Shown: positions 14,489 to 19,058 of the stretch, piece after piece
How the letters are laid out: every line of letters starts with the position of its first letter
Position numbering within the stretch: the stretch's first letter is position 1
Assembly: GCA_903827245.1 (NCBI GenBank)
Contig: CAIKHO010000056.1
Location: forward strand, 1-64,000
Length of the DNA stretch: 64,000 nt
Direction: 5' to 3'
DNA from: an uncultured Opitutia bacterium
GTDB taxonomy: Bacteria > Verrucomicrobiota > Verrucomicrobiia > Opitutales > Opitutaceae
The notes under the pieces: generated by a model
Database searches by the model: none
Told to the model about the DNA's origin: nothing
Seen by the model: the letters and a program-made list of their open reading frames with translations, nothing else
Position numbers and translations under genes: made by a program

Positions 14489-15565
14489 ATGACCTCCACC
14501 ACTTCACGTCCGCCCGACTCCCTGCCCGCCCTCCAGGCGCTATTTCAGCAGCGCATTGTCGTCCTCGACGGCGCCATGGGCTCGATGATCCAGACCTATA
14601 AGCTCGAGGAGCCCGACTTCCGCGGGGAACGCTTCAAGGACCATCCGCACGACCTGAAGGGTAACAACGACCTGCTCTGCCTCACCCGCCCCGACATCAT
14701 CGAGGGGATTCATTCCCAGTATTTTGCCGCGGGCGCCGACATGGTCGAGACGAACACCTTCAGTTCCACCACCATCGCTCAGGCCGACTACAAGCTCGAG
14801 TCGATCGTCACTGATTTGAACCTCGCCGCTGTCGCCGTCGCCCGCCGCGCCGCCCAAAAGGCCGAGGCGGCCACGCCCGGCCGCCGCTGCTTCGTCGCCG
14901 GCGCCATCGGGCCGCTCAACCGCACGCTCTCGATGTCCCCCGACGTCAACCGGCCCGACTACCGCGCCGTCGTCTGGGACCAGGTCGTGACCGCCTACGC
15001 CGAGCAGGTCCGCGCGCTGCTCGACGGCGGTGTGGACACGCTCCTCGTCGAGACGATCTTCGACACCCTCAACTCCAAGGCCGCCCTCTTCGCCATCGAG
15101 TCCGTCTTCGACGAGCGCGGCTACCGCGTGCCCGTCATGATTTCCGTGACGATCACCGACGCCTCCGGCCGCACCCTCTCGGGCCAGACCATCGGCGCGT
15201 TCTACAACAGCATCCGTCACTCGAAGCCCTTCAGCGTCGGCATCAACTGCGCCCTCGGCGGCCGCGCCATGCGCCCGTACGTCGAGGAACTCGCCTCGAT
15301 CGCCGAATGCTACGTCACCTGCTACCCGAACGCCGGCCTGCCCAATGCCTTTGGCGGCTATGACGAGACGCCCGCCGACATGGCCGCCGTACTCGGGGAA
15401 TTCGCCGCCAGCGGTTTCGTCAATCTTGTCGGTGGCTGCTGCGGCTCCACGCCGGAGCATATCGCGGCCATCGCCCAGGCGGTGCGCGGCAAGGCGCCCC
15501 GCCGCGTGACGAACGCGGCTCATGCCCTGCGCCTGAGCGGCCTTGAGACCCTGCAGGTGGCTTGA
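14489..15565 (+). CDS. metH: Methionine synthase, homocysteine-binding module (split MetH, part 1)
   Basis: This 358-residue free-standing homocysteine S-methyltransferase domain equals the N-terminal module of MetH. It has DGAMGSMIQ (27-35), ETNTFSS, and three zinc-ligand cysteines: Cys254 in GINCALGG and Cys317/Cys318 in GGCCGS. It has no pterin or B12 domain; those are in the gene starting at 16323. With that protein (911 residues) the total is about 1269, close to E. coli MetH (1227). I chose ATG 14489 (MTSTTSR) after CCTCCCGCC. The two halves presumably assemble to methylate homocysteine with methylcobalamin. Confidence 0.93.
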
Positions 15566-15586
15566 TCGCCGGACACGCACGGCGGC

Positions 15587-16330
15587 ATGGCCTCGGTCAA
15601 GGAGCACTACGACACGCACCTCGCGCCGCTTTACACGTGGATGAGCGGCGGCGCCGCGCCCGCGCGCCAGCGCATCACCGAACTCCTGCGCAGCCTCGAT
15701 CTTTATCCGGGTCATGCCGGCGCCACCGCCCTGGACCTCGGTGCCGGCAATGGCTTCCAGTCCATCCCGCTCGCCGAGGCTGGTTACACCGTGACGGCGG
15801 TGGATATCAGTGACGTGTTACTCGGCGAGCTTGAGCGCGACGCCGGCGCCCTCCCCGTGCGCACGGTCGCCGGCGACCTGCGCGACCTTAAACTCCACTG
15901 TCCCGTGCCCGCACCCGAGGTGATCGTATGCATGGGCGACACTCTCACCCATCTTTCGACCCTCACCGATGTTGAACATCTCCTCCGCGACGCCTCCCAG
16001 GCCCTGAAGCCCGGCGGTCACATGTTGCTGACTTTCCGTGACTACACGGTCGAGCGCGCAGGCCATGACCGTTTCATTCCGGTCCGCAGTGATGCCGACT
16101 GCATCTTCACCTGCTTTCTCGAATTCGGACCCACCCACGTCTCCGTCCATGACATCCTGCAGACTCGCGCCAGCCCGGGCTGGCGCACCGCCATCAGCGT
16201 GTATGAAAAAATCCGTCTCGCCCCGGACTGGGTTCATCGCCAACTCGTTGCCGCCGGGCTGGTCATCGTGAGAAATACCGTGCAGAACGGCCTTGTCACA
16301 CTCGCCGCCCGCCGTCCCGTCCATGCCTGA
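15587..16330 (+). CDS. Class I SAM-dependent methyltransferase inserted between the metH halves
   Basis: This 247-residue cytosolic protein has a Rossmann-type SAM-binding fold: motif [10 protein letters not shown] (48-56), acidic VTAVDIS after strand 2, and a post-I segment [12 protein letters not shown]. The N-terminal [16 protein letters not shown] segment resembles small-molecule methyltransferases. It starts 22 nt after the first metH module and its stop overlaps the start of the second by 8 nt, so all three are probably one operon. The substrate is unknown; the setting suggests a link to the methionine/SAM cycle, but this is inference. Confidence 0.8.
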
Positions 16331-19058
16331 TCTTCCCGCTCCCCCCTCCACTTCCCCGGCCTCCGGCTCCCAGTTTCTCGTCATTGGCGAGCGCACGAAC
16401 ATCACGGGCTCGCCCAAGTTCGCCAAGGCCCTGAAGGCCGGCGACTGGGACGCCTGCCTCGCCATCGCCAAGCAGCAGGTCGAGAGCGGTGCCAACGTCA
16501 TCGACATCAACGTCGACGAGGCGCTGATCGAGGGTGAGCCCACGATGGTGAAGTTCCTCAACCTCATCGCCGCCGAGCCCGACATTTCCCGCGTGCCAGT
16601 GATGATCGATTCCTCCAAGTGGTCCGTCCTCGAGGCCGGCCTGAAATGCATCCAGGGCAAGGGCATCGTGAACTCCATCTCGCTCAAGGACGGCGAGGCC
16701 GAGTTCCTCCGCCGCGCCAAGCTGCTCATGCGCTACGGCGCCGCTGCGGTCGTCATGGCCTTCGACGAGCAGGGCCAGGCCGCGACGCGCGATGAAAAGG
16801 TCCGCATCTGCACGCGCGCCTACCGGCTCCTCGTCGACCAGCTCGGCTTCGCGCCGGAGGACATCATCTTTGACCCGAACATCCTCACCGTCGCCACCGG
16901 CATCGAGGAGCACAACAACTACGCCGTCGATTTCTTCGAGGCCACCCGGATCATCAAGGCCACGCTCCCCTACGCGAAGGTCTCCGGCGGCGTCTCCAAC
17001 GTCTCGTTCTCCTTCCGTGGCAACAATCCCGTGCGCGAGGCGATCCACACGGTTTTCCTCTATCACGCGATCCGCGCCGGCCTCGACATGGCCATCGTCA
17101 ACGCCGGCATGCTCGGCGTCTACCAGGAGATTCCCGCGGACCTGCTCGAGCGCGTCGAGGACGTCATCCTCAACCGCCGCCCCGACTCCACCGAGCGGCT
17201 CGTAACCTTCGCCGACGAACTCAAGGCCCGGCAGGGCGGCGCGTCAAAAACCGAGATCAAGGAGGATCTTGCCTGGCGCAACGCCTCCGTCGAGTCACGC
17301 CTCTCGCACGCGTTGGTCAAGGGCATCGACCAGTTCGTCGAGGCCGACACCGAGGAGGCCCGCGCCAACACCGCGAAGTACCCCCGCCCGCTCAACATCA
17401 TCGAGGGCCCGCTGATGGACGGCATGCGCGTCGTTGGCGATCTCTTTGGCGCCGGCAAGATGTTTCTCCCGCAGGTCGTGAAATCCGCCCGCGTGATGAA
17501 GCGCTCGGTCGCCTACCTCACCCCGTTCATGGAGGAGGAGAAACGGCAGCTCGTCGCCGGCGGTGGCACCGCCAAGCCCAACGGCCGGTTCCTCATCGCC
17601 ACCGTCAAGGGCGACGTCCACGACATCGGCAAGAACATCGTCGGTGTCGTCCTTGCCTGCAATAATTACGAGGTCATCGACCTCGGCGTGATGGTGGCGT
17701 GCGACAAGATCCTCGCTACCGCGAAGGAACGCCAGGTCGACATCATTGGCCTCTCCGGGCTCATCACGCCTTCCCTCGACGAGATGGTGCATGTCGCCAA
17801 GGAGATGAAACGCCAGGGCTTCACCGTGCCGCTGCTCATCGGCGGCGCCACCACCAGCCCCGCGCACGCCGCGGTGAAGATCGCTCCCGAATACGCGCCC
17901 GGGGTCGTCCACGTGCTCGACGCCTCGCGCGTCGTCAACGTCGTCAGCGCCCTGCTTTCCACGGAGCAGAAGGCCGCCTTCCTCGCCGAGAACGTCGCCA
18001 AGCAGGAGCGCCAGCGCACCGAGTTTGCCGACCGCCGTAACAAACGCCCGCTGCTCTCGCTCGCCACCGCCCGCGACCGCCGCCAGAAATTCGACTGGGC
18101 CACGGTCGACATCCCCCGCCCCGAATTCCTCGGCACCCGCTCCTACTCCTCCGAGTCTTTCAACTCCCAACCTTCAACCATCAACTTCGATGAACTCATC
18201 GAGTTCATCGACTGGGGCCCCTTCTTCAGCGCCTGGGAGTTGCACGGCCGCTACCCGGATATCCTCAAGGATGAGAAAGTCGGCGTCGAAGCCACGAAGC
18301 TCTTCCACGAAGGCAAGGCCCTCCTCGCCCGCATCGTCGCCGAGAAACGCTACACCGCAAAGGCGATCATCGGCTTCTGGCCGTGCAACGCCATCGGCGA
18401 TGACATTGAAATCTACGGCGACGAAAAACGCAGTCGTGTCGTTACGACCTTCCACCAACTCCGCCAGCAACTCGAGAAGCCAGCCGACCAGTTCAACCAC
18501 TGCCTCGCGGACTTCATCGCGCCGAAGGACAGCGGCCGGCTCGACTACATGGGCGGCTTCGCCGTCACCGCCGGCCATGGCGTCGAGGAATTCGCCGCCG
18601 AGTTCCGCGCGAAGCACGACGACTACAACGCGATCATGGCCCAAGCGCTGGGCGACCGCCTCGCCGAGGCCCTCGCCGAGCTGATGCACAAGCGCGTCCG
18701 CGACCTCTGCGGCTACGGCCGCACGGAAAACCTCACGATGGCCGAGATCATCCGCGAACAATACCGCGGCATCCGCCCCGCCCCCGGTTACCCCGCCTGC
18801 CCCGACCACACCGAGAAGCCCATCCTCTTCAAGCTCCTCGGCGCCGAAGCCGCCACCGGTATCACTCTTACCGAGAGCAACGCCATGTACCCCGCCAGCA
18901 GCGTGAGCGGCTGGTACTTCAATCATCCAGATTCCAAGTACTTTGGCGTGGGGAAACTGGGTAAGGATCAAGTCCAAGACTACGCAGCTAGAAAATCGAT
19001 GTCCGTGCCTGAAACTGAAAAGTGGCTAGGGCCGTATTTGGACTACGACCCGATCTAA
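16323..19058 (+). CDS. metH: Methionine synthase, folate/B12/AdoMet modules (split MetH, part 2)
   Basis: This 911-residue protein lacks the homocysteine domain and begins with the pterin-binding domain ([12 protein letters not shown], about 20-290). Next come the cap and B12-binding domains with DVHDIGKNI, where His433 is the axial cobalamin ligand, and a C-terminal AdoMet reactivation domain with [12 protein letters not shown] near residue 820. It transfers methyl from methyl-tetrahydrofolate through cobalamin. ATG 16323 overlaps the methyltransferase stop by 8 nt. The linker around residues 606-622 is unusually Ser/Asn-rich, and the last 130 nt are less GC-rich than the rest. Confidence 0.94.

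Follow-up and report, generated by a model that had tools for sequence, protein, structure and literature searches.

A methyltransferase gene between the two halves of a split metH in an uncultured Opitutia bacterium and its possible place in the SAM cycle

The split metH locus and its neighbourhood

Here we analysed a window of 64,000 nucleotides (the whole stretch of DNA under study) from an uncultured Opitutia bacterium, in which the two parts of methionine synthase are encoded by separate genes and a gene for a methyltransferase (MT) lies between them (Table 1). The reading frames and their order, MetH-N, MT and MetH-C, matched the description in an earlier note on this DNA. MetH-N and MetH-C begin with ATG codons (at 14489 and 16323), 21 bases separate the MetH-N stop from the MT start, and the MT and MetH-C frames overlap by 8 bases; the earlier note had given the same overlap, whereas its 22-nt first junction was a difference of coordinates, the real gap being 21 bases. 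Because of this short gap and the overlap the three genes are likely to form one operon, as had been proposed, and we infer that they are co-transcribed.

Table 1. Features of the metH region (positions in the window)
Feature	Position	Strand	Basis
IF-2B family gene near the metH operon, probably methylthioribose-1-phosphate isomerase (MtnA)	10808-11905	-	Pfam
Divergently oriented TonB-dependent receptor gene next to the operon, possibly a BtuB-type importer of B12	12065-14002	-	PF00593 and PF07715 in 12065-13930
Weak match to the cobalamin riboswitch, in the interval that separates the metH operon from the divergent TonB receptor gene	14068-14377	-	RF00174, 26.4 bits, E 0.0022, below the gathering score of 31.5
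Palindromic operator-like site (CATATCAACGG...GACGATATG) before metH	14407-14436	+	By eye in family loci and pattern scan
MetH-N, homocysteine S-methyltransferase domain as a separate gene, 358 aa	14489-15565	+	PF02574, E 1.2e-93; TIGR02082 positions 2-337
MT, 247 aa, SAM-dependent methyltransferase of class I with a GNMT-like fold	15587-16330	+	PF13649/PF08241 above cut-off; profile hit on glycine/sarcosine N-methyltransferase (E 5.6e-14); model pLDDT 91.5, fold matches
MetH-C, 911 aa, with the domains for folate binding, B12 binding and activation	16323-19058	+	Pterin_bind, B12-binding_2, B12-binding, Met_synt_B12; TIGR02082 positions 340-1182, above cut-off
ArsR-family gene downstream of the metH operon	19534-19875	+	Pfam

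The homocysteine domain of MetH-N was recognised by its Pfam match and by three cysteines at 254, 317 and 318, within GINC and GGCC, which we take to be the zinc ligands and which are intact, as the earlier note had stated. In MetH-C the folate, B12 and activation domains are all present, with motifs located at 431 and 818 that we presume to be the MetH motifs (for B12, DxHxxG). Because of the TIGR02082 positions that they cover, MetH-N and MetH-C amount to one whole MetH, and from their domains they would act as the cell's methionine synthase. The host genome, 97.38% complete, gave one match to PF02574, one to AdoHcyase and none to PF01717, the last being the sign of a MetE-type enzyme. A full-length metH elsewhere, which the earlier note had named as one finding that would undo its reading, was sought in this genome and rejected, since PF02574 matches only once. 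The MetH-N/MetH-C pair is the sole methionine synthase found in the host genome.

As regards the surroundings of the operon, a TonB receptor gene similar to the divergent neighbour stands beside metH in five other loci (L031, L090, L091, L092 and L102, by letters), and the Rfam scan of positions 9000-24000 yielded nothing beyond the weak cobalamin match.

Comparison with the host's family placed the split in context. MetH-N matches at E 1e-60 were found in 219 of 252 family genomes, and at least 139 of the 252 carry a non-fused MetH-N, in a frame too short for a fused MetH, some of these short frames being possibly cut by contig ends. Among the best-scoring matches listed (149, from 148 genomes) the frame was fused in 9 genomes and non-fused in 139. 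Since this listing favours high scores, and a fused MetH scores less well, the 139 give a minimum for the 252 genomes and should not be read as a proportion of the 148. The split of MetH is thus ordinary in this family. Another, divergent type of MetH, whose N domain is larger, was present in 53 of the 252 genomes, and in 37 of these its frame reached at least 1,200 amino acids and is therefore fused; among the other 16, two (G163 and G243) sit at contig ends. Split MetH and divergent fused MetH were found together within single genera, namely g45 (G119 and G124) and g21 (G022 and G047), as if metH alleles had been exchanged within them.

Distribution and history of the methyltransferase gene

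In the comparison of family genomes (n = 252), METHYLTRANSFERASE recurred at metH. At least 11 of these genomes carry an MT homologue (E 1e-20 or better), and since at most 10 candidates were scored per genome some carriers may have been missed. In 10 of the 11 carriers found the gene lies at metH, in one of two positions. The N-MT-C order occurs in five, the window, G146, G107, G230 and G119 (G107 and G230 being the same contigs as loci L031 and L032, counted once), and is not unique to the host genome, a possibility that the earlier note had raised against itself. In the other five MT lies downstream of metH, at 10 nt (G047), 21 nt (G243), 298 nt (G073), about 610 nt (G124) and about 630 nt (G122). 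Three of these downstream loci could be read for the state of MetH, which is fused in G124 and G047 and split in G073, the metH loci of G122 and G243 being cut by contig ends. The eleventh MT, that of G163, is apart from metH, on a 7.3-kb contig that shows no metH, with 2.4 kb ahead of MT. Because most family genomes are without MT, including that of the same-genus relative G002, which has a split MetH, MetH does not need MT.

Beyond the family, MT was detected at E 1e-40 in 4 of 387 phylum genomes, these being the window, G073 and two others whose fetched stretches contained no metH. The earlier note had proposed looking for conservation of the three-gene order across Verrucomicrobiota, and neither this count nor the 5 of 252 family genomes bears it out. 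Seven further full-length homologues (L033-L038 and L043) also came from fetched stretches without metH, and no shared neighbour was recognised around them. Records of MT homologues away from metH belong to Bacteroidota, Fibrobacterota, Bacillota, Pseudomonadota and Actinomycetota; an annotated plasmid context was sought for them, and two Embleya records carry no annotation there.

The MTs of the five N-MT-C loci form one clade (100/99), and the downstream MTs together with that of G163 form another (100/99). On a quick tree of MetH-C (44 rows) the five N-MT-C hosts fall in five places among kin without MT, and the starred branches require five or more changes for them; the nearest row to the window, G002, is 95% identical in MetH-C and has no MT. 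Identities of MT and MetH-C show no joint trend in the N-MT-C group (r = -0.37, 10 pairs) and go together in the downstream group (r = 0.82, 6 pairs). The GC3 of MT in the window (77%, against 88-89% for its neighbours) resembles that of a newcomer, and in the three genomes measured the values were 77.4, 76.6 and 78.1% against 81.6-91.7% for neighbours. Examination of the N-C gaps of relatives without MT gave no convincing remnant of the gene (best E 0.069). Taking the clades, the scattered hosts, the unmatched identities, the GC3 values and the lack of remnants together, we conclude that a single site has seen several gains or losses of MT.

Replacement of the flanks by recombination was also considered and rejected: the comparison of the host with G002 gave no clear dip at the junction apart from that at the N end, a part that varies in the other pairs too. 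Other features of these loci were seen in passing. The N-C gaps of G002 (L095) and G226 (L124) consist mostly of long inverted repeats, that of G002 being GAGAACGAGAACGATT-like and that of G226 related to it, both absent from the window by eye. G146 has, immediately after MetH-C, an incomplete duplicate of the MetH-C end (L085, 4037-4279), and in G006 (L102, reverse strand) genes for CbiZ (adenosylcobinamide amidohydrolase) and CbiB/CobD lie between metH-N and metH-C.

A palindrome at metH, metK and metF

A palindrome of the approximate form ATATCAACnnAT-N4-AT-N5-GATATG was seen by eye before metH in most of the fetched family loci, being partial in L121 and not visible before the fused metH of L131, L133 and L135. 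Among the N-MT-C genomes it precedes MetH-N in all three whose contig reaches that far (the window, G107 and G230). In the host genome it recurs with no more than 3 mismatches at C70:46872, about 50 bases before metK, and ahcY comes after metK there, as it also does in four relatives (L174-L177, by letters).

We therefore scanned 29 genomes, including that of the host, with the pattern, which gave 37 matches in 17 genomes, none in the other 12, and 0 with the reversed control. Most of the matches (33 of 37) are beside metH (13), metK (11) or metF (9), and the remaining four are elsewhere (L154, L160, L165 and L167); three matches without a fetched locus were placed by their coordinates, beside a listed metH or on the opposite strand of a listed site. 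When five opposite-strand repeats were dropped, 28 of 32 sites were at these three genes, and Pfam confirmed the identities of MetK and MTHFR beside the palindromes. The letters ATC-N18-GAT are present in 31 of the 37 matches, most of them being demanded by the searched pattern itself, and 21 contain the SahR/SamR consensus ATC-10 nt-GAT, that consensus being proteobacterial and the host a member of Verrucomicrobiota. The palindrome thus stands before metH, metF and metK, and reaches ahcY through the position of this gene behind metK. Because it is common to these genes, MT may lie within a SAM-cycle regulon resembling that of SahR/SamR, with a putative operator and a presumed regulator. The ArsR-family gene downstream of the operon is a candidate regulator by position only, and ArsR-like genes are also downstream in L088 (Pfam) and L090 (by letters).

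Possible role of the methyltransferase and comparison with known systems

The AlphaFold model of MT adopts the class I fold with a GNMT-like C-terminal sheet, a fold common to other families as well. Structural neighbours at Z 20-25 include the named N-methyltransferases YunM, TylM1, CcbJ, CypM, GSMT and GNMT, and also the bacillithiol methyltransferase NmbA, the C-methyltransferases PsmD and SeMT and further proteins. Superposition on GSMT (5hij) gave Z 22.8 over 225 residues and on GNMT (1kia) Z 22.5 over 234 residues. The best profile match in the PDB was GSMT (5gwx, E 5.6e-14), rat GNMT following with E 1.7e-10; MT scored 38.5 bits with the NCBIfam GSMT model NF051855, far below its cut-off of 350. 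In the alignment CMGDTLTHL of MT corresponds to CLGNSFTHL, and RDY to RNY. Among 22 MT homologues D118, R151 and R162 are invariant, H122 is present in 21 and Y153 in 10. The arginine of RNY, after strand 5, is presumably Arg175 of GNMT, which binds the carboxylate of glycine. Because the invariant R151 aligns with it, an acceptor carrying both amine and carboxylate is favoured, not proven, and MT would perhaps act on a small molecule of this kind.

By its genetics MT belongs to the SAM cycle, and its predicted activity would probably consume the SAM that is made from methionine. We consider it fairly probable, with limited confidence, that MT is a SAM-consuming small-molecule N-methyltransferase lying in one unit with metH and co-regulated with the enzymes that make and recycle SAM. 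In such a scheme the three genes would be a single transcription unit under a methionine/SAM-cycle operator; MT, which looks like an active class I enzyme of GNMT/GSMT type, would take a methyl group from SAM, AhcY would convert the resulting SAH to homocysteine, MetH would turn homocysteine into methionine and MetK would remake SAM. Made together with MetH, MT would let methyl use and methyl renewal rise jointly. The place in SAM/homocysteine turnover suggested by the earlier note is supported by the linkage of MT with metH in 10 of 11 carriers, the operator common to metK and metF, and ahcY behind metK. A narrower version, in which MT is a bacterial GNMT-like methyl valve, a glycine or amino-acid N-methyltransferase tied by operon and operator to MetH, MetK, AhcY and MetF and gained repeatedly at metH, is doubtful; if true, it would burn off excess SAM at times of ample folate methyl groups.

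Several observations count against the SAM-cycle reading. Three of the five downstream MTs are about 300 to 630 nt away, a distance weak for co-transcription; no metH was seen on the G163 contig or in the stretches fetched around MTs from outside the family; most family genomes do without a gene whose GC3 is newcomer-like and whose product fails the GSMT cut-off; and the palindrome gave no match in 12 of the 29 relatives scanned, nor was it seen by eye in L131, L133 and L135. It is possible, if rather unlikely, that MT is a passenger, the N-C junction of metH tolerating insertions and a detoxifying or specialised-metabolite methyltransferase borrowing the promoter with no metabolic tie to MetH. 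The patchy presence of MT, the five separate places of its N-MT-C hosts on the MetH-C tree, a divergence that does not track that of MetH-C in this group, the lower GC3, the occupation of the same junction by other genes in G006 and the lack of a recognised common neighbour around homologues outside the family agree with this. Nevertheless, two MT clades linked to metH, in two different positions, are more than a single lucky insertion would give, and the genes inserted in G006 are B12-related, so that the junction seems to be open to genes of related function. That MT landed once and was then inherited by few genomes would fit its presence in only 11 of 252 genomes and the single clade of the N-MT-C enzymes; that 10 of the 11 MTs, from two clades, stand at metH in one of two positions, and that the scattered hosts force at least five changes, has already made it very improbable.

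The earlier note had also envisaged a role in MetH function, with MT methylating a part of MetH or its corrinoid and so tuning or repairing the synthase. Apart from the genetic position, nothing points to MT acting on MetH: MT was found in only 11 of 252 family genomes, against 139 or more in which MetH-N is non-fused; it also accompanies fused MetH (L090 and L092); its homologues occur where the fetched stretch has no metH; the named enzymes among the closest structural matches act, by their structure titles, on small molecules or peptide N-termini; and MetH-C has its own activation domain. We regard this reading as very improbable. The SAM-cycle reading would offer a first functional handle on an uncharacterised MT family, a candidate SAM-cycle operator for Verrucomicrobiota, and a view of the split-metH junction as a site that takes up genes connected with SAM or B12, be it MT or CbiZ-CbiB as in G006.

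With GNMT and GSMT, MT shares the best profile match, the RNY arginine and the fold at Z 20-23; unlike them it is shorter (247 aa), carries Asp where CLGN has Asn, stays below the family cut-off and is matched better by CypM in single-sequence comparison, and YunM, TylM1 and CcbJ fit its fold as well as they do or better. In Proteobacteria the core SahR regulon comprises ahcY, metH, metH2, metF and metK, and samR adjoins metH1 and metH2 in Xanthomonas, according to PMC4239095. The host's putative regulon resembles these in its target genes metH, metF, metK and ahcY and differs in its longer outer palindrome (ATC-N18-GAT) and in belonging to Verrucomicrobiota.

Split MetH is already known in print, in two or three parts (PMC7857596, PMC12478193 and PMC12366255), with the version of Ruegeria and Phaeobacter described in the last two, and the MT between the halves is the uncommon part; a search of the PMC literature, covering mostly titles and abstract openings, found no publication on this arrangement. 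In Phaeobacter the folate, cobalamin and homocysteine proteins are all separate, whereas the host has two proteins; PMC12478193 argues that the Phaeobacter version is not a simple separation from classical MetH, whereas the host's MetH-C matches the classical model above cut-off. Like other bacteria with a split MetH, the host makes the homocysteine domain as a protein of its own; it differs from them in that the gene of an unrelated methyltransferase sets the two halves apart.
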